Positions 9,487 to 60,533 of a DNA stretch of 64,000 bases are shown one piece after another. Below the pieces are notes generated by a model, which ran no database searches, was not told the origin of the DNA, and saw nothing but the letters and a program-made list of their open reading frames with translations. This DNA is from Cryphonectria parasitica EP155 (lineage: Eukaryota; Ascomycota; Sordariomycetes; Diaporthales; Cryphonectriaceae): the NCBI RefSeq assembly GCF_011745365.1, contig NW_024468919.1, positions 1 through 64,000 of the forward strand, given 5' to 3'. Position 1 is the first letter of the stretch. The number at the start of each line of letters is the position of its first letter. The translations under genes were made by a program, and so were the position numbers.

Positions 9487-10039
9487 CTAAGACGATCGCT
9501 TCGCCCCAAACCGAGATCCAGAAGCTTCAGAACAGAAATCAGATGCTGCAATCTCATCTAAAACGTTATTCCAATCCACCACATCGAGAGCATCCCAAGA
9601 CTGAGCCTCAATTACAGCTTCAGATTCAGCAGCATGCTGAGCATTCTCCTCCCAACGCTCCTTCTTCTCCAGCTCGTTCAGAGAATGCAGATCCTAACTA
9701 ACCATCTTCGCGTTGCAATTATGCAGGGAACATTTCTGTTTCTGCAAACGCATCAAACAAGCTGTTGCTTTATCCAACTTAGACTAAAGCTCGAAAAGAA
9801 CTTCCTCCGCATCTAACTCTTTCCGATCTAAATAACCAAGCTTAGTGATAATATGAAATACTATTAGAGAGATCAGAAAGCAAATAAGAAATAACTTAGG
9901 AAAGAGCAAACTTATAAGCATTTACTGGAATACCGGAATTATTGCAGGAACAATCTTAGCGAATATAACAGGAATACCTTTTAATATCTTTTATCATCTT
10001 ATATTCCAACTTCTTCGAAATACAGAAAGAATAAGATAT
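9487..10039 (-). pseudogene. E1 antisense gene: Zn2Cys6-like and coiled-coil protein (remnant, intron-containing)
   Basis: Convergent with pol: the antisense TAG (9487-9489) overlaps the pol TAA (9488-9490). The presumed start is ATA (ATG altered) at 10037-10039. The N-terminus shows the spacing C-x2-C-x6-C-x8-C-x2-C-x6-C, with Cys codons 1, 3, 4 and 5 reading TAT (Tyr). The frame then breaks, but removing 55 nt that start ATAAGT (presumably GTAAGT before mutation) and end CTAATAG restores it. The second exon continues into a Glu/Lys-rich coiled coil, a DVVDWN segment and the C-terminus GSRFGAKRSS. Two further stops are of RIP type. A DNA-binding role is possible from the cluster, but no function is shown. 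Confidence 0.72.
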
Positions 10040-10221
10040 GATTTCAAAACTTTGAAGGTTAATAGTTAGAGAAAGCTGAAAGCGTTATTCGGATTTTCGA
10101 GAAAGAGACTTTTCGATTCTGTTCAACATCTCGATTAGGAAGATATGATTATATATGCAAATAACTTGCTAGAATACTTACAGAAGATCATTAGAAACAA
10201 TAATTGATAGAAGAGAGATGA

Positions 10222-10326
10222 TGTTATAACTCATTCAACATGCAGATCACGAAACAAGCTCTGCTAACAAGGAACTAGGTATCACAACTCAATATCGGAC
10301 AACTACTAGGAATTACATAAGCAAGG
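10222..10326 (+). repeat. E1 3' LTR, first part
   Basis: Starts TGTTATAAC right after the purine-rich tract AGAAGAGAGATGA. It matches the first 105 bp of the 300-761 LTR and is then broken by E2. The last five bases, CAAGG, are the E2 target duplication. Confidence 0.92.
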
Positions 10327-10780
10327 TGTTATGACTCATCCAACATACAGGTCACAAAACAGGTCACGAGTAATAAGGATCAGGTATCAAGAACCCAACG
10401 TTCTGACAAAGCATTGATTACATAATCTAGGAAGGAAACAGGGATGGATCACTAGGAGCACCAGGAGTACAGCTCACTAGGCTTACCCGGATTACCACCG
10501 TGATCCGCAGGATGCTGCCAGACAATGATTCATACTAAAGAGCTGAATATATAAGGATATGTTCATCATCATTAGATGAATTCAGTATATAGCTCTTTAG
10601 TTATCAATCTAAGTATTCAGTCTTCTATACTAAGTAGCTCCAAAAGCAGTGAATACTTGCATTGCTTATTAGGATTTGTACAGTTCTGTATTTAAGAACT
10701 TAATACTTTGATACTGCTCTTGTTAGTATAAACTTCTTTGTATACTTAGGAATCTTTGGATTGCTGCAGTGCTCATTACA
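10327..10780 (+). repeat. E2 5' LTR (U3 type B)
   Basis: 454 bp, TGTTATGAC...GCTCATTACA. The U3 block contains AGGGATGGATCAC and GGATTACCACCGTGATCC, unlike the other LTRs except its own partner. Confidence 0.93.
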
Positions 10781-11458
10781 TTTTGATAATTCTTGTTCAA
10801 GAATAGTTCAGTATTACTCCCTTGAACAATACGGAATACGATAGCTTCTCTAGGAATCCCTTCGTCCTCGTGCGCCCCTACTCAGAAGGAACTGGTTAAC
10901 CAGGTGTATCAGCTTATTCAGCATATTCAGGATCTGCGCGAATAACAGCAGGCTCAGAGCGCTACTATCGCTAACCAACAGGCTCAGCTAGCTTAACAAG
11001 CTTAGCAGGCGCAGTCTATCTCTGCAATCACCAGTGGTACTGGAAAAGTATACAAGATGAATAAGCTTGCTATGTATAATAGCAATCAGAAAATGCTGCA
11101 TGGATTTCTTACCTACTGCAGGGTGTATTTTCTGTACTATGAGACTCAGTTTATTAAGGAATCTGAGAAAGTTATTCTTGCAGGGACTCATCTCGAAAAG
11201 AATGCTCTTATTTGATACAAGCCTTCTCTATGCAACTATTTGAAGCATTAGAATAATCTTAATATATATACTTAGGGTACTAAGAATATATTCGATTCCT
11301 TTGAAAGCTTCGAGAAAGCTTTCAAAGAAATCTTTGATAATTCTAACGAAGAATGCATTATAGCTTAGCAGCTTATGAATCTTAAGCAGACTAAGTTAGC
11401 TTCTGCTTATATAGTTAGATTCAAGCAATTCTTAGCAAGACTTTCGTAAGAAGATAAG

Positions 11459-11901
11459 TGTTATAACTCATCCAACATGCAGGTCACAGAACAGATCACG
11501 AGTAACAGGAACCAGATATCAAGGATTCAACGTCCTAACAAAGCATCGATTATATAACTCAGAATTAGAGTTATTAGCGGATAGATACAGTCAACATCTA
11601 TCCCGTCGATGAGAGAATCGATGGAATCAACATCAATTCTATCTATCCGAACTGAAGAACCAAATATATAAAGGTTTACATTCCCTACTGTTAGATAGAT
11701 TTCCTTCAGATAGTTCTTCAGTTATCAATCTAAGTATTCAGTTTCATATACTGAGTAGCCCCAAAAGCAGTGAATACTTGCATCGCTTATTAGAACTTGT
11801 ACAGTTCCGTATTCAAGAATTTGATACTTTGATACCGCTTTTATTAGCATAAATCCCTTCGTATATTTAGGAATCTTCGGATTGCTGCAGTGCTCATTAC
11901 A
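11459..11901 (+). repeat. E3 5' LTR (U3 type C)
   Basis: 443 bp, TGTTATAAC...GCTCATTACA. Its U3 block is bounded by the inverted pair CGGATAGATA and TATCTATCCG, which could form a hairpin. The LTR of E0 (30854-31298) has the same block. Confidence 0.94.
11665..11728 (+). promoter_or_regulatory. E3 LTR promoter core and presumed R start
   Basis: TATATAAA at about 11665, followed about 55 bp later by AGTTATCAA (11720-11728). The latter is the exact reverse complement of the sequence just inside the LTR (11904-11912). If transcription starts at or near 11720 the RNA 5' end could anneal to that site. The TATA-like core is present in every LTR of the family here; the start site itself is inferred. 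Confidence 0.5.
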
Positions 11902-11903
11902 TT

Positions 11904-11912
11904 TTGATAACT
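11904..11912 (+). promoter_or_regulatory. E3 putative self-priming primer-binding site
   Basis: TTGATAACT begins 3 bases after the LTR end. It is a perfect 9-nt complement of AGTTATCAA in the LTR. No TGG-type tRNA primer site is seen. Self-priming is established for Tf1 of fission yeast and reported for related chromoviruses; here it is inferred from complementarity alone. A hairpin-forming TTCTTG/CAAGAA pair follows immediately in several copies. Confidence 0.5.
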
Positions 11913-11960
11913 CTTGTTCAAGAACGGTTCAGTGTTATTCCTTGAGCAATACGGAATACG

Positions 11961-14900
11961 ATAGCTTCTTCAGGAACCCCTTCGTCCTTGCGCGTCTCTA
12001 CTCAGGAAGAACTGATTAATCAAGTATACCAGCTTATCCAGCATATCTAGGATCTGCGCGAATAACAGCAAGCTCAGAGCGCTATCATTGCTAATCAGCA
12101 GGCTCAGCTAGCTCAATAGGCTCAGCAGGTGCAGTCTATCTCTGCAGTTACTAGTGGTACTGGAAAGGCGTATAAGATGAATAAGCTTGCTATGTATAAT
12201 AGCAATCAAAAGATGCTGCATGAATTCTTTACTCACTGCAGAGCATATTTTCTGCATTACGAGACTTAGTTTACTAAGGAATCTGAGAAAGTTATTCTTG
12301 CAGAAACTCGTTTCGAAAAGGATATTCTCATTTGGTATAAGCTTTCTCTATGTAATCACTTGAAGCATCAGAACAACTCTAGCATACGTACCTAGGATAT
12401 TAAGAATATATTCGATTCCTTTGAAAGCTTTGAGAAGGCTTTCAAGAAGACTTTTGATAATCCTAACAAAGAATGCATTACAGCTTAGCAGCTTATAAAC
12501 CTCAAGCAAATCAAATTAGCTTCTGCCTATATAGTTAGATTTAAGCAGCTCTTAGTGCAACTTCCATAAGAAGATAAGAATCTTATGAAATACTATTATA
12601 AAGAACTCAAAGATAATATTAAAAATAAAATCTCCAAGCAGGATTAGCTGGAGAACTTTGCAACGTTCTCTAATCAAGCTATCTACATCAACAATCATCT
12701 GTATAAACAACAGATGAAGAAGTCCAAGAAGGGAGGAAGCCAGACTTGGAGATTTCCAGCTAATACGAGCAAGAAACTCCAAAATAAGAACAGCAGTTGA
12801 TATAGCAGCATAGCTTAGAGCAGTACTACGCATGCCAGTCCTATAGAACTCAATGCAGCTAATAAGCAGTATAGCAAGAGGAATAGCATTACTTGCTACA
12901 ACTGCAACAAATAAGAACACATTGCATGCAACTGCTATCAACCTCGGAAGAACAAATAGCAACTAATTCAGAAAGAATGCTAGATGAATATCGCTCGATA
13001 ATAGAAACTCAATCAACTGAGCAAAAACACTCCCTTGGAGCAAATATCGAACTCTGTTAATTACGAAAGTCTCAGCTGAATATTCTGCTATAACAACAAC
13101 TGCTTAATATACCTCTCGAGTAAGAAAGGTTCAGAATGGTTTCCTCAGAAATCTAAGCGCTATAAGCAGATAGCAATAGCAGAGCGAGGATATACGCTCA
13201 GCACAACTACAAGCAGCAACAACTCGAACTGCTCCGATATTACTGAATGAAGTATTTAGGTGCTAGAGAAAGAGCTTAACAACAGTGCTCTTCGCTATTC
13301 TTCATTACCTGTACCAGACATTATAATCAGAGATATGAATAAGAAATAATACTCTCTTAGCTACTGATATGAACATCTAGGTAATATAGAGAATGCTTCT
13401 CAGGCAATAAAAGAATCAAGCTAGAGCAAACAACCTAGCAGCTTGCAAAAGCTTTCTGCAAACAACAATGAACTCAAAAAGCTTACAGGAAGATTCTCCT
13501 TCAGCATTGGATGGAATAAAGAAACAACATAGATTGAATATCTCGTTTACAGAATAAAGCTGAAAGAGCTCTTCACCTGCATTCCCTTGCAGAACATTGA
13601 GATACAAGAAGATAAGAATCCTCAAATCAGCCTATTTTACAATCTACATTACAAACTAGCTTGGATCTCTTACATTTATTATAGCTGCAGAATACATTTC
13701 TCGAACAAGATGCAACACGAATAGTTTCCCATTAGAGAATCAGAACAAATCCTTCAGGCTGTTGAAAAACAGAAACTCTGCTTCAGAAAGATTCTCAACA
13801 AACAGCACCACAATGCATACATCAAACTACCAGACAACTGCCCCAAGCAATGCATAAACAAGAAGATAAAATGGTAGCAGTATAAAACAACATTCTGCAC
13901 AATTTACATTAATAATAAGATTTGCAACTAGCATTAACAGAAGAAAGACTAGAAATAATAATAATACAGGTAAAAGCAAGCTAAGAAGCTTGCTCAAAAA
14001 GCAGCGAAGCAGGCTTAGAAGAACAAGCAGTTCTTAACAAATCCAAAAGAACAGAATCGCTTATAAAGGAACTACAAACAATTAGACTGAAATAGTTCTT
14101 ATATGAAGCTTTCAAGACAGATTATGCTTACATCAAGTTCAATATATACATTCAAGGATACAAATACAGCGCACTATTGAACAGTAGCACTCAGGGAAAC
14201 TTCATATCCCTATACATTATCAATCAGGCACAACTACAATGGAAATGAAAGAGATACTCATATACTCTTAGCACTATGAAAGAACAATCTGTTGCATACA
14301 ACCAAGAAGTAATCAATAAGAAGACTGATTATCTATCTATCTTGATCCAAGAATGTGCAATCAGAGCTTCTTTTGATATCACGAATACAGCACAATATAA
14401 GCTAATTATGAGATTTCCATAGCTTAAGAAGCATAATTCTCGAATTAATTGAACTACTAGCCAGATCTCATAAGAACAAGCTATATCTAGAGAGATAGTT
14501 GCAATTAACAATGCAGAATCGAAGCTAGTTATTGAAGAATATTCGGGAAAAGAAGCTTCAAACAACTTCATATACACTTCCAAATCAGCAAAGCTAGCAG
14601 TTCAAGGAGAAGAACCTAGTAATAAGCGAATCCAAATAGTACTAGAGCGCTAACAGATTAGCAAAACAATGGAAGCGAGACTCTCAGCAAGTTGGTCTGC
14701 TCCGGAGCAACAAGGAAAAGCTTCAGAAAGTGAATTATAGATCTATACAGGAAAAACCTCGAAACTAAGCTCTTAAGTACTCGCTCTAGCTCGGAGCGAA
14801 CGCTCAAAGCCCTCGAAAACGCTATCAGAAGAGAAGCACGCTCAACAGTATCTACTATTCCTCTAGATAGCAGAAACAGCATAAGAACCAGAATCAACAC

Positions 14901-17701
14901 TTGCAAACATATCACGAGAATATCACAAGTTCAAGAAACTATTTCAGAAAGAATTAGATATAGGATTACTAGAATACAGTTTGTATAATTACAAAATCCT
15001 GCTACAAGAAGAAAAATAGCTCAAATTCTTCTCCATCTATAAGCTAAATAAAGCACAACTAGAGGCATTCAGGGAGTACTTCAACGAGAACCTTAAGAAA
15101 GAATATATACAATCATCGCGATTACTAGCAGAATATCCCATTCTGTTTATACTGAAGAAAAATAGCAAGCTTAGGCTATATATTGATTACAAGCAACTCA
15201 ATAATATTACAATTAAGAATCAATACCTGTTGCTACTCATCAAGAAATTATAAGATAAGCTGCAAGAAGCATAGTGGTTTATAATTCTAAATCTAAAAGA
15301 AGCTTACAATCTAATCAGAGTAAAGAAAGGAAAAGAATGGAAAACTGCCTTCAGAATACACTACAAACACTACAAATATTTAATCATGCCCTTCAGCTTA
15401 ACGAACGCCCCAGCTTCATTCCAGGAAATGATTAATTACATTCTATGCAAGCACCTGAATCAGTTCATCATTGCCTATCTCAACAACATTCTTATTTACT
15501 CTTGAACATTGGAAGAATACAAGAAATACATGGAAACAGTATTGCAAACGCTCCAGAATGCAAAGCTCCTTATAGAGCCTGCAAAGAGCTACTTTCATAT
15601 ACAAAAAGTTAACTATTTCGGATTTACAATCAAGCCAGAATGCATTAAGCTACAAAAAGATAAGGTGGAAGCTATTAAGAACTAGCTAATTCCTAGGAAT
15701 ATTAGAAATATTAAATCTTTCCTCGGATATATCAACTTCTATAAACAGTTCATTAAGAATTATAGCTAAATCGTACATCCTCTTACGAATCTTACCAAAA
15801 GGAATCAACTCTTCGAATAGATCTCCAAAATATAAGAAGCTTTTAATAAGATCATCAAGCATATCATCTCAAAGCTAGTTCTATATAAAGCAGACCTCTA
15901 CAAACCCTTTAAAGTTGAAACTAATGCATTAGAATATGCATTCGGAGAACAACTTAGCTAGCAAAATAATCAAGAATATCTAAGGATTATAAGCAACTTC
16001 TCGAAGAAGTTGAATAGTCCGGAAATCAACTACAGAATCCCTAATCAGAAACTCATAGCAATAATAAAAGCCTTCAAGAAGTAGCAATACTATCTCATTA
16101 GCATACAATACTCAATCATAATTCACTCGAATCACAAGAATCTGATTATATTTATAACAATCAAGGTTTTGAATAAGCAACAAGTCAGATAAGCAGAATT
16201 CCTCTTACAATTCAACTTCAAGATTATATACTGCAAAAGCTCAGAAAACGAATAAGCGAATGCTCTCAGCAGAAGATCAGACTATTGAGATGCAGATTCC
16301 TTGAACATACAGAACATCTTCGCTCAAAACAAGTCGGAAAATCTCGTTAATGCACATAAAAAACTGAACGCTGCTCTCAGAATAGAATCCTCGGAGAAGG
16401 ATCCAGAATCAATAATTCCAGATAAACAAGACAACTATATCAAGAATATATACAGTATATCAGCATACGAACATCAGAGAATTAGAGCAATCTACAAATA
16501 TATCAAAAAATACTGGAATCTATCAGATCTTAGAAAAAGGATTGAAAATATTCTATAATAATGCAATAGCTGCAAGAAGAATAAAGCAGAAAGATATAAG
16601 CTTTACGAACTACTGTACTTCTTATCAATACTTATAATTATTTGATAATTTATCAGTTTAAACTTTATTATCAAGCTATCTCTCTTATAAGAATCCTTAA
16701 CTAAGGTGCAATATAATAGCATTCTAGTAGTGGTTTGCAGATTGAGCAAGTATGCTTATTTTCTTTCCTATAAGAAAAGCAGTATAGCAGAGGAACTTAT
16801 ATATGCATTCCTTAGAATAATCATTGCTAACTATAGTATACTAGAAGAAGTGATCTCCAATAGAGATAGAAAGTTTAATTCAAAGTTTTGAACTTTACTT
16901 ATAAAACAACTCGGAATATACTACAGAATATCCATAGCATTTCACTTACAAACAGATAAACAAACAGAAAGAATGAATCAGATTGTAGAACAGTACTTTC
17001 GATACTATATCAATCAGAAACAGAATAATTGGATTAATCTATTGCTTCTTACACAGTTCGCTTATAATAGCATAAATACAAGCATAACAAAGAAATTATC
17101 ATTCTTCATACTTTATAAATACAACTCAATAGCTTATTACGAGGTACTGCAGAGAGCAGATGCAGAAGCTGCAGATAAAAGAATTAAGAAGATTAAGAAA
17201 GTTTAGAAGGAACTCCAATCAGAATTACAATTCATTCAAGAACGAATAACGCAGTATGCAAACTCTAAAAGGATTAAGAGATCAATCCTATAGAAGAAAG
17301 ATAAGATCTATCTACTTCGAAAAAACATCAAAACAACCAAACTCAGCAACAAACTCGATTATAAGAAGTTAGAATCATTCAAAATCTTGCAACAGATTTC
17401 CTCAGTTAATTATGAGTTAGCATTACTTCATAGGATAAGAATATATCTGATCTTCCACATTTTACTGCTAGAACTAGCAGCATAGGAAATACTAATAGAC
17501 AACACAGCAGAAATGGAAAATAATGAATCAGAGTATAAGATGGAAAAGATCCTCAAGCATAGAAGCACAAACAATACAAGGAAATACCTCATCAAGTGGA
17601 AAGATTACCTAGCAAGTGAAAATTCATGGGAACTACGAAAGAACGTTGAAAACGCTCAGGAAAAGATAGCTGAATATTGGAAAAGGAAAACCAGCATCTA
17701 A
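11961..17701 (+). pseudogene. E3 gag-pol, RIP-degraded reference copy
   Basis: Start codon altered to ATA at 11961. Gag carries a Gln-rich N-terminus, the capsid region and a CCHC-type zinc knuckle (12894-12935; C-x2-C, His present). The retropepsin site near 14171 has Asp to Asn and Gly to Ser. RT runs about 15020-15700 with YLNN at 15476-15487. RNase H is about 15870-16250. The integrase zinc-binding part is about 16540-16620, with a core at 16700-17200 that retains the QTDKQTERMNQ segment. The chromodomain occupies 17513-17698 and is fully open, with EKILKHR, YLIKWKDY and EYWKRK. The pol stop TAA (17699-17701) overlaps the antisense stop. The chromodomain and domain order place it in the chromoviruses. 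Confidence 0.93.
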
Positions 17702-18219
17702 GACGATCACTCCGCCCCGAACCGAGATCCAGGGCTCTCAGAAATCTCATTCTCCAGAAAACCCAACCAATCCATCACTGCATTCCCTATATCCACGGAA
17801 TTCCAATCAAAACTCTCAAAAGAAGAATCTCCAGCAACTACAGCAGATTCCTCTGCAACTATAGAACGAATCCCAGCAGCAATGCAAGCTCGCTTCTCTG
17901 CTTCCACTCTTTTCAACTTCTCCACATTATCAATTCCCTGATAAACAGCATATATTATCTTTTCATACTACATCCTTTTCTGCTTATGCAGCCTAAGGAG
18001 TTTGGTATTCAGCTCAGCAGCTTTCTCCTCGATCGCTTCTATCTCCGCTTCTAAGCAATAATATTAAGCGGTTATATAATTCAATTGTACAGACATCAGG
18101 CTACGCACATTGCAATTTAACAAACTCAAATATACGCAGATCTAATAGCAGGAAGATTCGGACTCAGCAATCTTGCACTCAGCCGAAAGATTGTAATCTT
18201 CGCAGTATGAGCAAAGCAT
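17698..18219 (-). pseudogene. E3 antisense gene: Zn2Cys6-like and coiled-coil protein (remnant)
   Basis: ATG at 18217-18219; reading leftwards to TAG at 17698-17700, with premature TAG and TGA codons of RIP type. About 173 codons, no intron needed. N-terminal cluster: C-x2-C-x8-C-x9-C-x2-C-x7-C, with Cys4 reading TAT. Then a Glu/Ala/Lys-rich coiled coil (about residues 50-115), the segment DSSFESFDWNS, and the C-terminus GSRFGAE. Tail-to-tail with pol, sharing its stop-codon bases. Its start lies about 195 bp inside the 3' LTR, so its own promoter should be in 18220-18414 or in the LTR. Zn2Cys6 clusters with coiled coils are typical of fungal transcription factors, but this protein is short and no function is shown. 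Confidence 0.78.
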
Positions 18220-18401
18220 AAGCGAAAAAGAACCGAAGGTAGCTACAGCAGAAAGAAGGAATGATTTCTGCAAAGAACGAGAATAAGGCTTAGCAATACA
18301 ACGAGAACTAACTCTATTCAACATCTCGATTAGAAAGGCAAGATTACGAACGAAAGATTTGCTAGAGTACTTACAAAAGATCGTTGGGGATAACAACTGA
18401 T

Positions 18402-18414
18402 AGAAAGAAGATAA
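18402..18414 (+). promoter_or_regulatory. E3 polypurine tract
   Basis: Purine-rich run AGAAAGAAGATAA immediately before the 3' LTR. The same position in other copies reads AGAAGGAAGATGA or similar. This is the expected primer for plus-strand DNA synthesis. Confidence 0.7.
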
Positions 18415-18856
18415 TGTTATAATTCATTCAATATGCAGATCACAGAATAGATTACAAGTAATAGGAATCAGATGTTAAGAATTTAATATCTTAACAAAGC
18501 ATCAATTATATAATCCAGAGTTAGGATTATTAGCGGATAGATATAGTCAACGTTTATCCTGTTGATAAAGAAATCAATGGAGTTAACATCAATTCTATCT
18601 ATCCGAACTGAAAAACCAAGTATATAAAGGTTTACATTCCCTATTATTAGATAGATTTCCTTCAGATAGTTCTTCAATTATCAATCTAAGTATTCAGTTT
18701 CATACACTAAGTAGCCCCAAAGCAATGAACACTTGCATCGCTTATTAGGACTTGTACAGTTCCGTATTCAAGAACTTAATACTTTGACACCGCTCTTGTT
18801 AGCATAAACCCCTTCGTGTACTTAGGAATCTTCGGATTGCTGCAGTGCTCATTACA
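18415..18856 (+). repeat. E3 3' LTR (U3 type C)
   Basis: 442 bp, TGTTATAAT...GCTCATTACA, followed by ATAAG. Same U3 block as the 5' copy, with additional transitions. Confidence 0.94.
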
Positions 18857-21800
18857 ATAAGAATCTTATGAAGCATTATTACAAGGAATTCAAGAATAAT
18901 ATTAAGAATGAAATCTTTAAGCAGAATTAGCTGAAGAACTTTGCGATATTCTCTAATCAAGCTATCTGCATTGATAATTGTTTGTATGAATGACGGGTGA
19001 AGAAGTTCAAAAAGAAAGAAAGCTAGATTTGGAGATTTCTAGCTAATATGAGCAAGAAACTTCAAAATAAGAATAGCAGTTGATATAGCAGTATAGCTTA
19101 AAGCAGCACTATGCATGCTGATTCTATGAAACTCAATGCTGCTAATAGGCAGTATAGCAAGAGGAATAGCATTACTTGCTATAACTGCAACAAATAAGAA
19201 TACATTATATGCAATTGCTATCAATCCCGGAAGAATAAATAGCAATTAGTTCAGAAAGAATATTAGATGAATATTGCTCAGCAATAGGAATCCAATCAAC
19301 TAAGCAAAAACACTCCCTTGGAGCAAGTATCGAACTCTGTTGATTATAGAAGTCTCAGCTGAATATTCTGCTATAACAATAACTGCTTAATACATCTTTC
19401 GAGTAAGAAAGGTTCAGGATAGTTCTCTCAGAAACCTAGATGCCATAGGCAGATAGCGATAGCAGGGCGAGAGTATATGCTCAGCACAACTACAAGCAGT
19501 AACAACTCGGATTGCTCCGATATCACTGAACGAAGCATTCAGGCGCTGGAGGAAGGGCTTAATAACGGTGCTCTTCACCATTCCCCATCGCTTGTACCAA
19601 ATACCATAATCAGAGAAATGAATAAAGGATGATATCCTCTTAGTTATTAGTATAAATATCTAAATAATACTGAAAATGCTTCTTAAGCAATGGAAAAATC
19701 AAGCTAGAACGAATGATCTAACGATTTACCGAAGTTTCTTATGAACAATGAACCCAAGAAGCTTATAGGAAGGTTTCTCTTTAGCATTGAATGAAATAAG
19801 GAAACAATATGAGTTGAATATTTTGTTTATAGGATAGAATTAGAGGAGCTCTTTATTTGCATTTCCTTATAAAACATCGAGATATGAGAAGATAAGAATT
19901 CTCGGATTAGCTTACTTTACAATCTATATTATGAATTAGCTTAAATCTTCTGCACCTATTATAGCTGCAGAATGTATTTCTTAGATAAGGTGCAATATGA
20001 ATGGTTTTCTGTTAGAGAATTAGGATAAATCCTTCAAGCTATTAAAGAACAGAAACTCCGCTTTAGGAAGATTCTCAACAAACAGCACTACAATGCATAT
20101 ATCAAACTATCAGATAACTATCTCATGCAATGTATAGATAAGAAGATAAAATGATAGCAGTGCAAAACAATACTCTGCACGATTCACATTAATAATAAGA
20201 TTTGTAACTAGCATTAATAGAAGAAAGATTAGGAATAATAATGATATAAGCAAAAGCAAGCTAAGAAGCTTGCTCAAGAAGCAGCAAAGCAGGCTCAGAA
20301 GGACAGACAGTTCTTAACAGACTCAAAAGAATAGGATTGCTTGTAAAGGGACTGCAGATAATTAGACTAGAACAGTTTCTATATAAAGCTTCTAGAACAA
20401 ATTATGCTTACATTAAGTTCAACATATATATTCAAGAATACAAATACAGCATACTATTAGATAGTAGCGCTCAGGGAAACTTTATATTCCTATATATTAT
20501 TAATCAGGTATAACTACAATGGAGATGGAAGAGGCGCTTATATATCCTTAGCACTGTAGAAGAACAATCTGTTGCATACAACTAAGGAATAATCGATAAG
20601 GAAACTAATTATTTATCTGTTTTGATTCAAGAATGCATAATCAGAGCTTCTTTTGATATCATGGATATAGCATAGTATGAGCTGATTATAGGACTTTCAT
20701 AGCTCAAAGAGCATAATTCTCGAATCGATTGGACTACTAGCTAGATTTCATGGAAATAAGCTATACCCAGAGAGATAGTTACAATCAATAGCGCAGAATC
20801 GAAGCCAGTAATTGAAGAACATTCAGAAAAAGAAGCTTTATACAACTTCATACATACCTTCAAGTCAGCAGAGCTAGCAGTTCAAAGAGAAGAATCTAGT
20901 AATAAGCAAATCCAAACAGTACCAGAGCGCTAACAGGTTAGCAAAACAATGGAAGCAAGGCTCTCAGTAAGTTAGTTCGCTCCGAAGCAACAAGGAAAAG
21001 CTTCAGAATGTGAATTGTGGAACTATACAAGAAAAACCTCGAAATCAGGCTCTCGAGTGCTCAGCTCAGCTCGGAGCGAACGCTCAAGGCTCTTAAAAAT
21101 ACCATCAGAAAAGAAGTATGCTCAACAGTATCTACTATTCCTCCAGATAGCAGAAACAGCACAAGAACCAGAACCAATACTTGCAAACATATTACAAGAA
21201 TATTACAAGTTCAAAAAACTATTCCAGAAAGAATTGAATACAGAATTACTAGAATACAGCCCATACAACCACAAGATTCTGCTACAAGAAGAGAAATAGC
21301 TTAAATTCTTCCTTATCTATAAACTAGATAAAGTATAGCTAGAAGCATTTAGAGAGTATCTCAATAAGAATCTTAAGAAAGAATATATATGATCATTGCA
21401 ATCACCAGCAGAATATCTCATTCTGTTTATACTTAAGAAGAATAGCAAGCTTAAGCTATGCATTAACTACAAGCAACTTAATAACATTATAATCAAGAAC
21501 TAATACTTATTGCTATTCATTAAGAAATTATAAAATAAATTGCAAGAAGCACAATGGTTTATAGTTCTAGATTTAAAAGAAGCTTACAACTTGATTAGAG
21601 TAAAGAAAGAAGAAGAATGGAAAACTGCTTTTAGAATATGCTATGAATACTACGAATACTTGGTTATGCTCTTTGATTTAACGAATACCCCAGCTTTATT
21701 TCAGGAAATGATTAATTACATTCTATATAAGCATCTAAATCAGTTCATCATTGCCTATCTCGATAATATCCTTATTTACTCTCGAATGCTGAAAGAATAT

Positions 21801-23980: not shown

Positions 23981-24606
23981 TTAGGATAACTGCTCCGCTC
24001 CGAACCGAGATCTAGAAGCCTTAGGAATCTTGCTTTCCAAAAATCCAGAATAATCTATAACAGCTCTACTAGGATTAACAGAGTTCCAGTTAAAACCATC
24101 AAACAAGAGATTCTCAGCTAAAATACTCTTAGCTGATACTGCCTTACAAACCGATACAGCAAGATTGCATTTCTCCTCCTTACAACATTCTTACTTATCC
24201 AGCTTATTAAGGGATTCAAAGCTTGCATTTACCATCTGAGCGCCCCGGGAGGCAAGAGATCTACGCTGAGTGCGCAGGCAGGCAAGATGAGCAGCGGATT
24301 CCAAGATCTTCGTACGAGCTTCGTTAAGGATCTCCAGCGCTCAACGATGAGCCCTCTCCAACTCTGCCTCCGCTTCCCACTCCTTCGATTCCAGCCTCTT
24401 ATTTTCTGCTATAATGCGCGAGACTAAGGAAAGAAGAGGAATATTAGCAAAGGGATTAGAAGGGAAGAAAAGAGGGATTTACGAGCAGAAACAGGAATCC
24501 TACAGCTATTATAAGAACGAGCACAATGAATATACTGAGAACAATGCTTTGCATCATCCATCATCTTGCATACCAGATCCTAGAAAGTGCAAGCAGTATA
24601 AAGCAT
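23981..24606 (-). pseudogene. E2 antisense gene: Zn2Cys6-like protein with an intact intron (remnant)
   Basis: ATG at 24604-24606. Exon 1 carries C-x2-C-x6-C-x8-C-x2-C-x6-C, with positions 1, 5 and 6 reading TAT. A 59-nt intron starts GTAAAT, has CTAAT-type branch sequences in a pyrimidine-rich tract and ends TTTCCTTAG. Splicing it restores the frame (phase 1) into a long charged coiled coil (NKRLESKEWEAEAELERA). The C-terminal part keeps FDGFNWNSV and SRFGAEQLS, ending TAA at 23981-23983 over the pol TAG. Three RIP-type stops interrupt it. Compared with E3-E6 the protein is barely alignable except for the Cys spacing and C-terminus. Confidence 0.75.
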
Positions 24607-24788
24607 AATCTCAAAACTAAACTAATCAATAGCTAGGAAAAGATAGTTATACTGTTCAGTTTTCTTAGAAAAAGATTTCTCAATCCTATTCAACATCTCA
24701 ATTAGGAAAGCAAGATCAAGTATACAGAAAACTTGCTAGAATACTTACAGAAGATTGTTGGAAACAACAACTGATAGAAGGGAGATAA

Positions 24789-43900: not shown

Positions 43901-45888
43901 AGTTTAAGAAACTATTTCAGAAAGAATTGAATATAGGATTACTAGAATACAGCTTATATAATTACAAGATTCTGCTACAAAAAGGAAAATAGCTCAAATT
44001 CTTTCTTATCTATAAACTAAATAAAGTATAGCTAGAAGTACTTCGGAAATATCTTAATGAGAATCTTAAGAAAGAATATATATAATCATTGCAATTATTA
44101 GCAGAATATCCTATTCTGTTTGTATTTAAGAAAAATAGCAAGCTCAAGCTATATATTAATTACAAGCAATTCAATAATATTATAATTAAGAACTAATATT
44201 TATTGCTACTCATCAAGGAATTACAAAATAGATTGCAAGAAGTATAATAGTTTATAGTTCTAAATCTAAAAAAAGCTTACAATCTAATTAGAGTAAAAGA
44301 AGGAGAAGAATAGAAAACTGCTTTCAGAATATGCTATAGATACTACAAATATTTAATCATGCTTTTTAGTTTAATAAATATTCCAGCTTTATTCCAGGAA
44401 ATAATCAATCACATTCTATGCAAGCTATTAGAGAATGAATAAGCAAACGCTTTCAGCAGAAGATTAAACTATCAAGATGCAGATTCCTTGGATATATAGA
44501 ACATTTTCGCTCAAGATGAATTAGAAAATCTCATTAATGTATACAGAGAACTAAATGCTGCTCTCAGAATTGAATCCTTAGAAAAGAATTCAGAATCAAT
44601 GATTCCGGATAAACAAAACAACTATATTAAGAATGTATACAGTGCATCAGCATACAGATATTAGAAAGTTAGAGCGATTTACGAATGCATTAAAAGATAC
44701 TGAAATTCATTAAGCTTTAGGAAAAGAATTGAGAATATTCTACAATAATGCAATAGCTGCAAGAAAAACAAAGCAGAAAGATATAAGCTTTACAAACTAC
44801 TGCATCCCTTACCAGTATCTACGATTATTTAGCAATTTATCAGTTTAAACTTTATTATTAAGCTATTTCTCTTATGAGAACTCTTAACTAAAGTGCAATA
44901 TAATAGCATTCTAGTAGTGATTTGCAGATTAAGTAAGTATGCTTATTTTCTTCTCTATAAGGAAAGTAGTACAGCAGAGGAACTTGTATATATATTTCTT
45001 AGAACGATTATTGCTAATCACAGTATATTAGAGGAAGTAATCTCCGATAGAGATAGAAAGTTCAATTCAAAGTTTTGAACTTTACTCATGAAACAGCTTG
45101 AAATATACTACAGAATGTTTACAGCATTTCACTTACAAACAGATGAATAAACGGAAAAAATAAATCAGATTATTAAACAATATCTTTAATACTATATTAA
45201 TCAAAAATAGAACAATTGAATCAACCTATTGCTTCTTGCATAATTCGCTTATAATAATGCAGATACAAGCACAATAAAGAAATCACTATTCTTCATACTC
45301 TATGAATATAATTCAACAGCTTATTACGAGGCATTGCTAGAAGCAGATGCAGAAGCTGCAGATAAAAGGATTAAAAGGATTAGAAAAGTTCAGAAAGAAT
45401 TCCAATCAGAACTACAATTCATTCAGAAACGAATAGTATAATATGCAAACTCCAAGAGGATTGAGAAACTAATTCTACAGAAAGGAGATAAGATCTACTT
45501 ATTTCGAAAAAACATTAAAACAACAAAATCTAGCGATAAATTCAATTATAAGAAGTTAGAATTATTCAAAATCTTATAATAGATCTTCTCAGTTAATTAC
45601 GAATTAGCATTATCTTATAGGATGAGGATATACTCGATTTTTCATATCTTACTGCTAAAACTAGCAGTATAGGAAATATTAGCAGATAATACAGCAGAAG
45701 TAGAAAATAACGAACTAGAATATGAAGTAGAAAAAATCCTTAAGTATAGAAGCACAAATAGTACAAGGGAATATCTTATTAAATAGAAAGGCTACTCAGC
45801 AAGCGAAAATTCTTGGAAACCACAGAAAAATATTAAAAATGCTCAGGAAAAGATAGCTGAATATTGGAAAAGGAAAACCAGTATCTAA
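40940..45888 (+). pseudogene. E5 gag-pol with RT/RNase H deletion
   Basis: Start read as ATA at 40940. Gag includes the zinc knuckle near 41872-41915. Within RT the sequence jumps from ATTCTATGCAAGC directly to the end of RNase H (GAGAATGAATAAGC) at about 44421-44430. This removes the YxDD motif and nearly all of RNase H, about 786 bp relative to E6. The two parental sequences share a few bases (AAGC) at the join. Integrase follows with a clean 61-codon run (44893-45078, QYNSILVVICRLSKY). The chromodomain ends at TAA 45886-45888. Confidence 0.88.
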
Positions 45889-46397
45889 GATAATCGCTCC
45901 ATTTCAAACCAAGACTCAGAAGCTTCGGAAACCTCACTCTCCAGAAAGCTCAACTAATCTACTACAGAATCTCTCAAATCTAAAGAATTCCAATTAAAAC
46001 CTTCAAAAGAAGAATTCCTAGCTATAATAATAGATTCCTCTGCTACTACAGCCTGCACTTCAGCAGCAATATGCATTCTCTCAGCTTCAGCTTCCTCAGC
46101 TTTCATACAATTCAATTCCTTCATACAAGTAATATTATAATGCAGAGCACATTTCATCTTCTTGAATCATATCTGCTTCTGTTAGTATAGATAGAAAAGC
46201 TTGATTTTCCTCTTCTCAATTTCGTTTTTCAACTTTCAATATTGAGTAGTGATATTGCGAAGCTCCTCAGGGGAAGAGCTCATGATGTTACACTTGGAGC
46301 AGCTTAATCGAATGCATTCGATATAACGAGAAGAGTTTTCGAGAGATACCTTGCAGAATCCGAAATTATAATCCTTGCAATAGGAATAAACGGGCAT
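45885..46397 (-). pseudogene. E5 antisense gene: Zn2Cys6-like and coiled-coil protein (remnant)
   Basis: ATG at 46395-46397, one frame with no intron to TAG at 45885-45887, over the pol TAA. N-terminus MPVYSYC with C-x2-C-x7-C-x9-C-x2-C-x7-C; Cys1 and Cys4 read TAT. Then SSSPEELRNI, a coiled coil broken by RIP-type stops, and an Ala/Glu-rich part (KAEEAEAERMHIAAEVQAVV). The end is SSFEGFNWNSLDLRDSVVD and a C-terminus close to that of E6. It survived the deletion in pol, so its sequence was not needed in cis for that event. Confidence 0.77.
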
Positions 46398-46597
46398 CTC
46401 GATAAAATTTTCCAAGAAATAGGAAATCAAGAGATTTCAATCTTGGATACTCTTTGGAATGGAAGAAGGTTTGCAAATACAGAATTTGTTAATTCTGTTC
46501 AATATCTTAATCAGAAAGGCAAGATTATGCATATAAAGAACTTGCTAGGATACTTATAGAAGATTATTGAGAATAATAACTGATAGAAGAAAGATGA

Positions 46598-49875: not shown

Positions 49876-49934
49876 TTTTAACAATTCTTGTTCAAGAATA
49901 GTTCAGTATTACTTCTTGAGCAATACGGAATATA

Positions 49935-52900: not shown

Positions 52901-55669
52901 AAGAAATTATTTCAGAAAGAATTGAATACAGGATTACTGAAATACAGCTTATATAATCACAAGATCCTGCTATAAGAAGAGAAACAGCTTAAATTCTTTT
53001 CTATCTACAGATTAAACAAAGTATAGCTAGAAGCACTTCAGAAGTACTTCAACGAGAATCTTAAGAAAGAATATATATAACTATTGCAATTACTAGCAGA
53101 ATACTTCATTCTGTTTATACTTAAGAAAAATAGCAAGCTTAAGCTATATATTAACTATAAGCAACTCAATAATATTATAATTAAGAACTAATACTCGTTG
53201 CTACTTATTAAGGAACTATGAAATAAGTTGCAAGAAGTATAATAGTTTATAGTTCTAAACTTAAAAGAAGCTTACAATCTGATTAGAATAAAAGAAGAAG
53301 AAGAATAGAAAACTGCTTTCAGAATATACTACAGATACTACAAATATTTAATCATGCTTTTTAGTTTAATAAATATTCCAGCTTTATTCCAGGAAATAAT
53401 CAATTACATTCTATGCAAGCATCTGAATCAGTTTATTATTGCTTATCTTAATAACATTCTTATTTACTCTCGAATATTAGAAGAATATAAGAAATATATA
53501 GAAACAGTATTGCAAATGCTTCAAGATATGAAGCTTCTTATAAAACTCGCAAAGAGCTACTTTCATATACAAAAAGTTGACTACCTCGGATTTATAATTA
53601 AGCTAGAATGTATTAAGCTACAGAAAGATAAGATGAAAGCTATTAGAAACTAGCTAACTCCTAGAAATATTAGAGATATTAGATCTTTTCTTGAATATAT
53701 TAACTTTTACAAACAATTTATCAAAAACTATAGCTAAATTGCATATTCTCTTACAGATCTTACTAAAAGGAATCAACTCTTCAAATGAACTTCTAAAGCA
53801 CAAGAAGCTTTTGATAAGATTATCAAGCATATTATCTCGGAGCTAATTCTGTACAAAGCAGATCTCTACAAACCCTTTAAAATTGAAATTAATGTATCAG
53901 AATATATACTTGGAGAATAACTTAGCTAGCAAAATAACTAAGAGTATCTAAGAATTATAAGCAATTTCTCAAAGAAATTGAATAGCTCGGAAATCAACTA
54001 CAAAATCTCTGATCAGAAACTTATAACAATAATGAAAGCTTTTAAAAAGTAGCAATACTATCTCATTAGCATATAATATCTAATTATAATTTATTCAGAT
54101 TATAAGAATCTAATTATATTCATAATAACTAAGATTTTGAATAAGCAATAAGTTAGATAGGCAGAATTCCTCTTATAATTCGATTTCAAGATTATATACT
54201 GCAAAAGCTCAGAGAATAAACAAGCAGATGCTTTCAGCAGAAGATTAGATTATCAAGATGCAGATTCCTCAGATATATAGAACATTTTCGCTCAAAACGA
54301 ATTAGGAAACCTTGTTAATACATACAGGGAACTGAATACTGCTCTCAGAATCGAATCTTCGGAAAAGAATCCAGAATCAATAATTCCGAACGAACAAAAT
54401 AACTACATCAAGAATGTATACAGTATATCAGTATACAAATACCAGAGAATCAGAGCAACTTACAAATGCATTAAAAAACACTGGAATCTACTAAGCCTTA
54501 GAAAAAGGATTGAGAATATTCTATAATAATACAATAGCTACAAAAAAAACAAAGCAGAAAGATATAAGCTTTACGAACTACTACACTCCTTATCAGTACT
54601 TATAATTGTTTAGCAATTCATCAGTCTAGACTTCATTACTAAGCTATTTCTCTTATAAGAACTCTTAACTAAAGTGTAATATAATAGCATTTTAGTAATG
54701 ATTTGCAAATTAAGCAAGTATGCTTATTTTCTCTCTTATAAGAAAAGCAGTATAGCAGAGGAACTCGCATATGTATTCCTCAGAATAATTATTGCTAATT
54801 ACAGCATATCAGAGGAAGTGATCTCCAATAGAAACAGAAAGTTCAATTCAAAGTTTTGAATTTTACTTATAAAACAGCTTGGAATATATTATAGATTATC
54901 TATAGCATTTTATTTATAAATAGATGAATAGATGGAAAGAATAAATCAGATTGTTAAACAGTACTTTCAATACTATATCAATCAGGAACAGAACAATTGA
55001 ATCAATCTATTGCTTCTTATACAGTTTGCTTATAATAGTACAGATATAAGCATAATAAAGAAGTTACTATTCTTCATACTCTATAGATATAACTTAATAG
55101 CTTACTATAAAGCATTGCTAGGAGCAGATGCAGAAGCTGTAAACAAAAGAGTTAAAAGGATTAGAAAAGTTCAGGAAGAATTTCAATTAGAACTATAATT
55201 CATTCAGGAACGAATGATACAATATGCAAACTCCAAGAGAATTGAGAAACCAATCCTATAGAAAGGAGATAAGATCTATCTACTTCAAAAAAATATCAAA
55301 ATAATAAGATCTAGCAATAAACTTAATTATAAGAAGTTAGAACTATTCAAAATCTTATAATAGATCTTCTTAGTTAATTACAAATTAGTATTACCTTATG
55401 GAATAAGAATATACTCAGTTTTCCACGTTTTACTGCTGGAATTAGCAGCATAGGAAATACTAGCGAATAATACAGCAGAAGTAGAAAATAATGAATTAGA
55501 GTATGAAGTGGAAAAAATCTTTAAGTATAGAGATATGAATAGCATAAGAGAATATCTCATCAAATGAAAAGGCTACTCAGCAAGCGAAAATTCTTGGAAA
55601 CTACAGAAAAACGTTAAAAATGCTCAGGAAAAGGTAGCTGAATATTGGAAAAGGAAAACCAGTACCTAA
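49935..55669 (+). pseudogene. E6 gag-pol, RIP-degraded, no large indel
   Basis: Start read as ATA at 49935. Zinc knuckle near 50868-50910 (Cys residues present, His lost). Retropepsin Asp is Asn. RT has a 99-codon open run at 53354-53653 that includes FSLINIPALFQEIINYIL and YLNN at 53444-53455. RNase H is about 53830-54200. The integrase core and its linker have an open run at 55010-55198. The chromodomain ends at TAA 55667-55669. Stops elsewhere are frequent; among the copies its RIP load is high. Confidence 0.9.
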
Positions 55670-56178
55670 GACGATCGCTCTGTTCCGAACCGAAACTCAG
55701 AAGTTTCAGAAATCTTATTTTCCAGAAAGCTCAACTAATCTACTACAGAATCTCTCAAATCTAAAGAATTCCAGTTGAAATCTTCAAAGGAAGAATCCTT
55801 AGCTATAATAATAGATTTCTTTGCTACTACAGCCTGCATTTCAGCAGCAATATGCACTCTCTTAGCTTCAGTCTTCTCAGCTTTCATACAATTCAATTCC
55901 TTCATGCAAATAATACTATAATGCAGGATATATTTCATCTTCTCAAATCATATCCGCTTCTATTAGTATAGATAAAGAAGCTTAGTTTCCCTCTTCTCAA
56001 TTTCATTCTCCAATTTTTGATGTTAAGTAGCGATATTACGAAGCTCCTCAGAAGAAGAGCTCATAATGTTGCACTTGAAGCAGCCTAATCAAATGCATTC
56101 GATATAACAAGAAGAGTTTCTGGGAAACATCTTGCAGAATCCGAAATTACAATCCTTGCAATAGAAACAGATGGGCAT
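55666..56178 (-). pseudogene. E6 antisense gene: Zn2Cys6-like protein with five of six Cys intact
   Basis: ATG at 56176-56178, stop TAG at 55666-55668 over the pol TAA. Cluster C-x2-C-x7-C-x9-C-x2-C-x7-C; only Cys4 reads TAT. After it come SSSSEELRNI, a coiled coil with a few RIP-type stops, then KAEKTEAKRVHIAAEMQAVV, SSFEDFNWNSLDLRDSVVD and a C-terminus RFGTERSS. About 170 codons, no intron. This copy gives the clearest view of the Cys spacing in the intron-less subgroup. Confidence 0.79.
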
Positions 56179-56378
56179 TTCGATAAAATTTTCCAAGAGA
56201 TGAGAAACCAAGAGATCTCAATCTTGGATACTCTTTGGAATGGAAAAAGGTTTGCAAATACGGGATTTGTTGATTCTGTTTAACATCTCAATCAGGAAGG
56301 CAAGATTATGCATATAAAGAACTTGCTAGAATACTTATAGAAGATTGTTAAGAATAATGACTGATAGAAGGAAGATGA

Positions 56379-56824
56379 TGTTATAACTTATTCAATATAC
56401 AAGTTACAAGATAAGCTTTATTAACTAAGAAACTAGATATTACAATCCAACGTTGAGTATTAATTAGGATTATATAATCCGGATTAGGGTTACTAATGCA
56501 ACTATGTTAGCTATGAATATAGTTAACATATTTAGAAAACAATTATAAGGAATCGGAATATAGTTAGAATAGTTAGAATTGAAGAGCTGAATATATAAGG
56601 ATATGTTCATTATCATTAGATAGATTCAGTATATAGCTCTTCAGTTATTAATCTAAGTATTCAGTTTCATACACTGAGTAGCCCCAAAGGCAGTAAATAC
56701 TTGCATTGTTTATTAGAACTTGTACAGTTCCGTATTCAAGGACTTAATACTTTGATACTGCTCTTGTTAGCATAAACCTCTTTGTGTACTTAGGAATTCT
56801 CGGATTGCTGCAGTGCTCATTACA
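56379..56824 (+). repeat. E6 3' LTR (U3 type D)
   Basis: 446 bp, TGTTATAAC...GCTCATTACA, followed by TAGTG. Confidence 0.93.
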
Positions 56825-59800
56825 TAGTGATTGAAGAATACTCAGAAAAAGAAGCTTTATACAACTTCCTATATACCTTCAAACCAGCAGAGCTAGCAGT
56901 TCAAGGAGAAGAATCTAGTAACAAGCAAACTCAAACAGTGCTGGGGCGCTAATAGGTTAGCAAAATAACGGAAGCAAAACTCTTAGCAAGTCGATTCGCT
57001 CCGGAGCAGCAAGGAAAAGCTTCAGAATGTAGATTGTAGAACCATACAAGAAAAACTTCGAAACCAGGCTCTCAAGCGCTCGATCCAGCCCGGAGCGAAC
57101 GCTCAAGGCTTTCAAAAACGTTACTAAAAACAACGAACGAAAAGAAGCATGCTCAACAGTATCTATTATTCCTTCAAGTAGCAGAAATAGTATAAGGATT
57201 AGAACTAATACTCGCAAATATATCTTGAGAATATTACAAGTTTAAGAAACTATTTCAGAAAGAATTGGATACAGAATTGCTAGAATACAGCTCATACAAT
57301 CACGAGATCCTGCTACAAGAAGAGAAACAGCTCAAATTCTTCCTTATCTACAGATTAGATAAGGCACAGCTAGAGATACTTAGAGAGTATTTCGATAAGA
57401 ATCTTAAGAAAGAATATATACGATTATTGCAATTACTAGCAGAATACTCTATTCTGTTTGTATCTAAGAAAAACAGCAAACTCAAGCTATATATTAATTA
57501 TAAGTAATTCAATGATATTACAATCAAGAACTGATATTCGTTGCTACTCATTAAGGAATTACAAGATAAGCTGCAAGAAGCATAATAGTTTACAGTTCTG
57601 AATCTAAAAGAAGCTTATAATCTGATTAGAATAAAAGAAGGAGAAGAATAGAAAACTGCTTTCAGAATACGCTATGAATACTACAAATATTTGATTATAC
57701 TCTTTGATTTAACGAACATTCCAGCTTTATTTCAGAAGATAATCAATCATATTCTATATAAGCATCTGAATTAGTTCATTATTGCTTATCTCAATAACAT
57801 TCTTATTTACTCTCAAATACTGAAAGAATACAAGAAGTATATGGAAATAGTATTGCAAATGCTTTAGAATGCGAAGCTTCTTATAAAATCTGCAAAGAGT
57901 TACTTTCACATATAAAAGATTAATTATCTCGAATTCACAATTGAGCTAGAATGCATTAAGCTACAGAAAGATAAAGTAAAAGCTGTTAGGAATTAGCCAG
58001 TTTCCAGAAACATCAGGAATATTAGATTTTTCCTTAGATATATTAACTTCTACAAGCAATTTATTAAGAACTACAGCTGGATTGCATATCCTCTTATGAA
58101 TCTTATCAAAAGGAATCAACTCTTTGAATGAATCCCCAAGATATAAGAAGCTTTCAATAAGATCATTAAGCATATTATCTCAGAGCTAATTCTGTATAAA
58201 GCAGATCCTTACAAACCCTTTGAAGTTAAGACTAATGCATCGGAATATATACTCAGAGAATAACTTAGCTAGCAAGATAACCAAGAATATCTAAGAATTA
58301 TAAGCAACTTCTCAAAGAAATTGAATAGCTCAGAAATCAATTACAGAATCCCTAATTAGAAACTCATAGCAATAGTAAAAGCTTTTAAGAAGTAGCAATA
58401 CTATCTTATTAGCATATAATACTTAATTATAATTTACTTGAATTATAAGAATCTAATTATATTCATAACAACTAAGGTTTTGAATAAGCAATAAATTAGA
58501 TAAGCAGAATTCTTCTTATAATTCGATTTCAAGATTATGCATTACAAAAGCTCGGAAAACGGATAAGCAGATGCTCTTAGCAGAAGATTAAACTATCAAG
58601 ATACAGATTCCTCGGATATATAGAATATCTTCATTCAAGATAAATTGGGAAATCTCGTTAACATATATAGAGAACTGAATGCTGCTCTCAGAATCGAATC
58701 TTTAAAAAGAAATTCAGAATCAATAACTCTGAATAAACAAGATAACTATATCAAGAATATATACAGTATACTAGCATATGAATATCAGAGAATTAGAGCA
58801 ATCTATGAATATATCAAAAGATATTGGAATTTACTAGATCTTAGAAAAAGAATTGAAAGCATCCTATAACAATGCAATAGCTGCAAGAAGAATAAAGCAA
58901 AAAGATACAAATCTTACAAACTACTATATTCCTTATCAGTACTTATAACTATTTAGCAATTCATTAATCTAAACTTTATTATTAAGCTATCTCTCTTATA
59001 AGAATTCTTAACTAAAGTATAATATGATAGCATTCTAGTAGTAATTTGCAGACTGAGCAAATATACTTATTTTCTTCTCTATAAGAAAAGCAGTATAGCA
59101 GAGAAACTTGCATATGCATTCCTCAGAATGATTATTGCTAATTATAGCATATCAGAAGAAGTGATTTCCAATAGAGATAGAAAGTTCAACTTAAAGTTTT
59201 GAATTTCGCTTATAAAACAGCTTAAAACATATCATAGAATATCTATAGCATTTTACTCACAGATAAATAAACAGATAGAAAGAATAAATCAAGTTATTGA
59301 ATAATATTTATAATACTATATTAACCAGGAACAGAATAACTGAGTTAATCTGTTGCTTTTTATACAGTTCGCTTATAATAGCGCAGATATAAGCATAATA
59401 AAGAAGTTACTATTCTTTATATTCTATAGATATAATCCAACAGCTTATTACAAAGCATTGCTAGAAGCAGATGCAGAAGCTGCAAATAAAAGAGTTAAGA
59501 AGATTAAGAAAGTTTAGAAGAAATTTCAATCAGAACTACAATTTGTTTAAGAATGAATGATACAATATGCAAATTCCAAGAGGATTGAAGAACTAATCCT
59601 ATAGAAAGGAGATAAGATTTATCTATTTCGGAAAAATATTAAAACAATCAAATCCAGCAATAAACTTGATTATAAGAAGTTAGAGCTATTCAAAATCTTG
59701 CAATAGATTTCTCCGATTAATTACAAGTTAGTATTATCTTATAAAATAAGAATATATCCAGTTTTTCACATTTTACTGCTGGAATCAGCAGTACAGGAAA

Positions 59801-60008
59801 TACTAATAAACAATATAGCAGAAGTGGAAAATAATAAATCAGAGTATAAGATAGAGAAGATTCTTAAGCATAGAAGCATAAACAATATAAGAGAATATCT
59901 TATTAAATGGAAAGATTACTTAGCAAGCGAAAATTCTTGGGAATTGCAGAAAAATGTTAAAAATGCTTAGGAAAAGGTAGCTGAATATTGGAAAAGGAAA
60001 GCTAGTAT

Positions 60009-60533
60009 CTAAGATAATCGCTCTATCCCGAACCGAGATCCAGGAGCCTCAGAAACCTCGCTCTCCAGGAAATCCAACCAATCTATCACTGCATTTCCTA
60101 CATTCACGGAATTTCAGTCAAAACCCTCAAAAGAAGAATCCTTAGCAATTACAGCAGATTTCTCTGCAACTACAGAACAAACCCTAGTAGCAATGCAAGC
60201 CTGCTCCTTCTCAGCTTTCTTATATTCCAACTTCTTCATACTGGAAAGGCTTTGATGAATGGCTTTCATTATCCTTTCAAACTACAGATGCTTCTGCTTC
60301 CGCAAACATTCTACCTCTGCAGCAGCATCGCGCAGCTGCTTCTCAGCACTCTCGAGTTGGTTCTCCAGACGTTGGTATTGAATGCCTATCCAACGAATTT
60401 CCGCTGCGCTCAACTCTTGAACGTTGCACCAAGAGCGATCCAAGCGAATATATTCAGTACAGTAAGAGGAATTCTCAACGGAGACTTGATAAGACTGAAT
60501 ACTATAATCCTTATAGAAGGAACAAGAAGGCAT
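60009..60533 (-). pseudogene. E4 antisense gene: Zn2Cys6-like and coiled-coil protein (remnant)
   Basis: ATG at 60531-60533 and an 83-codon open run to 60282; the frame continues through one TAG and one TGA to TAG at 60009-60011, over the pol TAA. N-terminus MPSCSFY with C-x2-C-x7-C-x9-C-x2-C-x7-C; Cys2, 3 and 5 read TAC or TAT. A well-preserved coiled coil follows (QRLENQLESAEKQLRDAAAE, then CLRKQK). The end keeps SSFEGFD and GSRFGIE. Best-preserved coiled coil of the six. Confidence 0.79.

Follow-up and report, generated by a model that had tools for sequence, protein, structure and literature searches.

Which gene lies on the strand opposite to the coding strand of the Ty3 chromovirus retrotransposons of Cryphonectria parasitica EP155, and what does it do for the element that carries it? 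The window analysed here, 64,000 nucleotides (nt) of contig NW_024468919.1 (C11:1-64000 in a source genome of 43.8 Mb on 17 contigs), contains six pol/chromodomain 3' ends, E1-E6. It is mostly AT-rich, with a GC content of 28-38% across its nested elements, the expected outcome of repeat-induced point mutation (RIP). E3 is a complete element with a pair of long terminal repeats (LTRs) and the 5-bp duplication ATAAG at both flanks; the chromodomain PF00385 was detected in a related pol end at E 4e-17. Our analysis shows the antisense gene to be a conserved component of the retrotransposon, and to vary together with part of the LTR next to it.

An antisense gene between pol and the 3' LTR

The gene is present at all six pol/chromodomain 3' ends of the window, as a sequence-only reading of this DNA had proposed for every copy with an intact 3' part, and the stop-side coordinates of that reading were exact. 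It had placed the gene opposite pol, with about 170 residues. The gene instead lies 3' of pol and convergent to it, filling the interval from the pol stop to the 3' LTR, and has about 205 codons, the start chosen earlier being an internal ATG. The features concerned are as follows.

11459..18856, plus strand: E3 complete element, 5' LTR 11459-11901 and 3' LTR 18415-18856, from LTR comparison
11454-11458 and 18857-18861: E3 flanking duplication ATAAG, from inspection of the element ends
17246..17677, plus strand: E3 pol 3' end with chromodomain
9035-9466, 23526-23957, 45442-45864, 55214-55645 and 59557-59988: equivalent pol 3' ends of the other copies
17698..18324, minus strand: E3 antisense gene, type D, from the stop to the position aligned with Met1 of P0004
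60009..60626, minus strand: E4 antisense gene, type C
45885..46505, minus strand: E5 antisense gene, type A
55666..56286, minus strand: E6 antisense gene, type A
9487..10129, minus strand: E1 antisense gene, E1/E2 type, two frames
23981..24696, minus strand: E2 antisense gene, E1/E2 type, two frames
24424..24482, minus strand: candidate 59-nt intron of the E2 antisense gene, donor GTAAAT, acceptor CCTTAG, joint as in L083

The EP155 genome holds at least 150 matches to this gene family (327 candidates, 150 scored), from which 50 loci were studied, namely the best 30 and a further 20 picked by hand, mostly for long open frames. Of 63 match clusters, seven short or partial ones (E1 and E2 among them) were set aside, leaving 56 rows, or 54 copies once two duplicates are removed. 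The antisense stop and the pol stop share 2 nt in 39 of the 56 rows, duplicates included; among the other 17, the pol stop is 20 or 23 nt off in nine, which fits premature pol stops, no pol motif was found in four, and four have other offsets. The antisense gene starts 79-93 nt from the 3' LTR in 55 of 56 rows, no LTR having been found in the remaining one, and most copies have an antisense open reading frame (aORF) between pol and the 3' LTR. An antisense frame of at least 560 nt is kept in 56 of the 63 clusters, and although RIP has acted on them, most copies have an in-frame length of 609-633 nt. Stops interrupt all six window copies; 2 of the 54 distinct copies are uninterrupted.

E1 and E2 represent a type with 18 matches in the genome, in which the segments encoding the Cys cluster and the coil stand in different frames, as two candidate exons. 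E2 and its relative L083 share a candidate antisense-strand intron of 55-59 nt with the same joint, and the GenBank models P0130 and P0132 have an identical exon joint; the test applied to E2 and L083 detected no intact intron in E1. An intron on the antisense strand survives reverse transcription of the sense RNA, so that the candidate intron of this type would fit an antisense messenger. In E1 the element's own 3' LTR apparently begins at about 10221 and is broken by a second LTR from about 10327 (window 10211-10330).

RIP produces transitions only, and selection was therefore counted from transversions, on a tree of the 54 copies. In the antisense frame these fell on codon positions 1, 2 and 3 in numbers of 135, 72 and 209 (p 1.9e-15), and the ratio of non-synonymous to synonymous change (dN/dS) calculated from them was 0.32, well away from 1; it was 0.19 on terminal branches versus 0.40 on internal ones, and 11 transversions created stops. 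A flanking region of 330 nt beyond the start codon gave 110, 94 and 103 transversions by position (p 0.53) and dN/dS of 0.80-1.20 across six frames. One sense frame of the gene itself had a transversion dN/dS of 0.50. Changes silent only in the antisense frame were enriched 2.2-2.3-fold against each sense frame, whereas changes silent only in a sense frame stood at 0.63, 1.08 and 0.48 of expectation, and this enrichment identifies the antisense frame as the selected one. The sequence-only reading had also held that missing Cys residues read TAT or TAC, the RIP product of TGY; six Cys columns in 54 copies (E1 and E2 not included) contain 257 TGY and 67 TAY codons and nothing else in 324 cells. 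The antisense protein is under selection, and the transversion tests, the Cys codons and the relatives in other species bear out an element-borne, protein-coding gene.

Protein architecture and relatives

From its N-terminus the protein has a short basic stretch, then the six-Cys cluster and a long coiled coil, and it ends in a tail that is acidic and aromatic. Conservation is found in a short N-terminal stretch, in the cluster and in the coil core (RLRKQK..W..KM.RA..RGI..EELERVE), and in several members, those of the C. parasitica genome included, the tail has FDWNSVDVGNAVVDWSGFL-like sequence. One search returned 18 relatives and an alignment search 157 (7992 candidates scored, 120 listed); the hosts among the matches listed include Pyricularia, Colletotrichum, Fusarium, Cordyceps, Beauveria, Hirsutella, Metarhizium, Gaeumannomyces, Apiospora, Cytospora and Chaetomium, which are genera of the Sordariomycetes. 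Viral contigs yielded no relative, none of 16 pattern matches being confirmed.

All six Cys are present in 99 of 128 family proteins, the remainder being mostly fragments or proteins with Tyr in place of a Cys. The Zn2Cys6 pattern is C-x2-C-x6-C-x5-12-C-x2-C-x6-8-C; the family spacing is 2-7-9-2-7 in 78 of the 99, with the first half one residue long, and x6 occurs there in 17 of the 99. By eye, L083 and P0133 of the E1/E2 type have 2-6-8-2-6. When the predicted domain was compared with the PDB, all 24 of 24 weak matches were Zn2Cys6 proteins, and the six-Cys cluster probably folds, to judge from this model, like a Zn2Cys6 binuclear cluster. The sequence-only reading had described a Zn2Cys6-like cluster with a coiled coil; the predicted fold agrees with it and the sequence profiles do not. 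A profile-profile comparison with Zn2Cys6 gave an hhalign probability of 21% over 19 columns, half a cluster, L039 and L040 have no Zn_clus match, and between Cys 2 and Cys 3 the family consensus lines differ from a basic stretch of the CRxRKxKC type. Foldseek with the full-length model found no meaningful match in the PDB, and a sequence search of the PDB gave chance coiled-coil matches only. A match to DUF465 (9 of 49 members, best E 9.3e-6) was set aside as a helical-hairpin resemblance; DUF3716 (PF12511) had no match in L039 or L040 and was absent from the best 25 of 107 families for A2.

Protein types, the U3 block and possible functions

The 54 copies comprise at least five diverged protein types, A-E (n = 8, 5, 19, 18 and 4). 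Divergence was examined region by region in 52 copies. In the last 225 nt of pol it amounts to 0.002-0.008 transversions per site between types, not above the within-type level, whereas the part encoding cluster and coil shows 0.11-0.27 between types versus 0.012-0.032 within. The spacer makes no distinction between types (0.027 between and 0.027 within). LTR nt ~36-186, in U3 (the part unique to the 3' end of the RNA), differ by 0.07-0.34 between types versus 0.03-0.04 within (75-nt windows), and by up to 0.42 between types in 30-nt windows; the rest of the LTR shows hardly any type distinction. In E3 this block is located as follows.

18450..18604, plus strand: type-specific U3 block of the E3 3' LTR (LTR nt ~36-190)

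Type labels were taken from the N-terminal half of the protein, which gives 5 label changes for the protein block by construction and leaves the U3 result independent. On its tree the U3 block (~150 nt) also shows 5 changes, with a minimum of 4, compared with 13-14 for the spacer, 13-17 for the remaining LTR, 22 for the C-terminal 40 codons of the protein and 24-25 for pol; shuffled means were ~27 (26.7 for pol). The DNA-binding/coiled-coil part and the U3 block thus co-segregate almost perfectly, and pol and the protein C-terminus do not. This pattern points to a shared backbone with exchangeable cassettes, each combining the U3 block with the presumed DNA-binding part of the antisense protein. 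Hardly any transversions separate copies of types A-E in the final 225 nt of pol, which indicates that pol was homogenised or recently spread by recombination.

In copies with the least damage, the U3 blocks contain inverted or repeated words that are specific to type. Type A has an inverted repeat with 13-nt arms and five occurrences of ATAGTC; type B has an inverted repeat with 10-nt arms, type C has TATCCA five times, type E has 12-nt arms and the word GGATCA, and L083 of the E1/E2 type has GATCAC four times. Inverted repeats at LTR nt 105-200 were tested in 15 copies, the three of highest GC from each of five types; in 4 of the 15 they exceeded all shuffles, compared with 1 of 45 other LTR windows at p 0.01 or less. 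For repeated 6-mers, p fell below 1/200 at windows 90 or 135 in 6 of the 17 copies examined (L039, L046, L044, L019, one L048 and L083) and in no other window. These words resemble the sites that would be expected of a dimer, a likeness that is supportive only. Of 53 LTRs, 46, 34 and 52 respectively retain CCG/CGG triplets at LTR alignment columns 387, 415 and 460, which lie outside the U3 block.

The reading that we favour, with a probability of roughly 60%, is that the gene encodes a self-targeting DNA-binding regulator of the element's own LTR. The gene would be transcribed from the 3' LTR side; its product would, by its layout, be a small dimeric fungal transcription factor, with zinc binding and dimerisation both presumed; the dimer would recognise sites specific to its type in U3 of the LTRs of the element that carries the gene, and once bound it would control LTR transcription, whether upwards or downwards being conjectural as well. 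The sequence-only reading had supposed an action on the LTR, and the type-linkage of protein and U3, together with the motifs in part of the copies, lends this indirect support. More tentatively, and with clearly less than even odds, the antisense Zn2Cys6-type regulator and a matched U3 operator array may form an immunity-like module, of which each type would regulate only itself; recombination would place these modules on a common pol backbone and so let several types coexist in a genome. Several results weigh against a regulator of this kind. The cut-off of PF00172 (Zn_clus) was not reached, the profile being detectable in 14 of 49 members with a best E of 0.12. No significant inverted repeat was found in 11 of 15 copies, and at p 0.05 other LTR windows were similarly rich in repeated 6-mers. 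Type D was not significant in most motif tests, its copies and E2 showing no 6-mer significance below 0.04 at windows 90/135. Physical linkage of the adjacent blocks also explains part of the co-segregation.

That linkage is central to a less likely alternative, in which the selected protein has some other role (binding RNA or protein, bringing the pre-integration complex into the nucleus, or acting on host chromatin, which the sequence-only reading had also named) and U3 co-varies merely as its linked antisense promoter. The two blocks are only ~130 nt apart, linkage to type fades gradually beyond the U3 block, with 13-17 changes in the remaining LTR against ~27 at random, and the missing Zn_clus profile match suits such a role too. 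However, the pol side is as close to the variable protein block as the U3 side and yet is unlinked to type (24-25 changes, with 26.7 after shuffling), the spacer, at 13-14 changes, follows type less closely than do the blocks that it separates (5 and 5), and the domain model retrieves Zn2Cys6 proteins only. It is very improbable that the antisense RNA is the functional product, acting as double-stranded RNA or in silencing, with an incidental open frame: antisense transcripts that regulate retrotransposons are known (PMC7264820), but codon-position bias and transversion dN/dS refute this as the sole function, though the RNA may have a role alongside the protein, and amino acids are conserved across genera in a frame that most copies keep at 609-633 nt. 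A host gene captured recently and now decaying as a passenger is a still poorer candidate; C. parasitica does have many Zn2Cys6 genes (at least 143 matches listed), but the gene holds the same position in 55 of 56 rows, has at least five diverged types and has relatives in other genera. Least credible is that selection acts on a sense-strand gene or pol extension of which the antisense frame is the shadow. One sense frame is fairly open: the 15 copies with the least RIP damage have 0-5 stops in it, and its dN/dS is the 0.50 given above. But dN/dS is lower in the antisense frame, the silent changes are enriched there (sense-only ones reaching 0.48-1.08 of expectation), and homologous proteins in the database correspond to the antisense frame.

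Other antisense frames and known systems

Another Ty3 element of the EP155 genome, with a 1274-aa frame, has in five copies a DUF3716 match on the opposite strand, each 1942 nt from the integrase match; a sixth, equal DUF3716 match is without an integrase match among those listed. This parallel case suggests that the antisense arrangement arose more than once. By eye, the DUF3716 frame of L060 is likely to have further exons. Within the literature searched, one paper contains DUF3716 (PF12511). In the intact 1243-aa chromovirus (L002, L004) the antisense family was absent from the sequence scanned. Five other pieces downstream of pol gave no family profile match except L059, downstream of the 1243-aa chromovirus, where the match is only to a neighbouring damaged family relative (E 1.7e-9). 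An antisense frame of L059, for which the 157-aa part scanned had no Pfam match, may be due to chance in GC-rich DNA.

L060:1075-1890 (G000:C10:21974-22789), minus strand: DUF3716 antisense ORF, 25.6 bits at a cut-off of 22, downstream of the 1274-aa Ty3 pol
L059:1-657, minus strand: antisense ORF, 219 codons stop to stop, Ala/Pro/Arg-rich, after the 1243-aa pol

Elsewhere in the window, tandem arrays with periods of 37 bp and 82 bp occupy 3126-3865 and 4425-5380; the 37-bp array has ORFs of 187-231 aa, and a similar repeat peptide occurs in L013.

Antisense genes in this position have been described before, as brtn in Boty and as plant aORFs, and we know of no function assigned so far to the antisense genes of LTR retrotransposons. 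The brtn gene of Boty-like retrotransposons was reportedly treated by Zhao et al. 2011. It is an antisense gene of Boty-like elements in Botrytis cinerea and Sclerotinia sclerotiorum (PMC7264820) and, like the C. parasitica gene, lies between pol and the 3' LTR of a fungal Ty3 chromovirus; the accessible parts of the sources state no zinc cluster, types or U3 linkage for it (PMC7264820, PMC4227169). No Botrytis or Sclerotinia relative was found among the 120 listed of 157 family matches. Plant aORF-3R genes include gene23 of Grande, those of RIRE2 and that of Retand with TRP28; the Grande protein is nuclear and TRP28 is predicted to bind DNA, but these are other proteins in other hosts, and a zinc cluster is unmentioned for them in the parts of the sources at hand (PMC7264820, PMC11963269). 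Further literature for comparison is PMC8365987 and PMC5987419. GAL4, HAP1 and PUT3 resemble the C. parasitica protein in their six Cys, in the cluster fold (predicted here) and in the coiled coil behind it, whereas the latter is small, has mostly 2-7-9-2-7 spacing, and lacks a Zn_clus match and a classical basic stretch.

Two further systems may work alike. HBZ is a basic leucine zipper (bZIP) protein of a retrovirus. In human T-cell leukaemia virus type 1 (HTLV-1) its antisense gene is read from the 3' LTR and its product is a nuclear regulator (PMC7264820, PMC11963269). The likeness would be one of working. The type-linkage of protein and U3 is new here: no description of the family, its types or the U3 linkage was found in the literature searched, subscription papers being mostly outside its reach. 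Lambdoid phage immunity regions have diverged repressor/operator types that are exchanged as a unit between similar genomes; the biology is different, and the comparison with the C. parasitica module would again concern the way of working only. With a fungal family that has a predicted DNA-binding fold, selection and a candidate target in its own LTR, the question of function becomes one that binding experiments could address directly. Were the matched-pair reading true, retrotransposons would have self-recognition types comparable to phage immunity, and many fungal 'hypothetical proteins' would be retrotransposon regulators.

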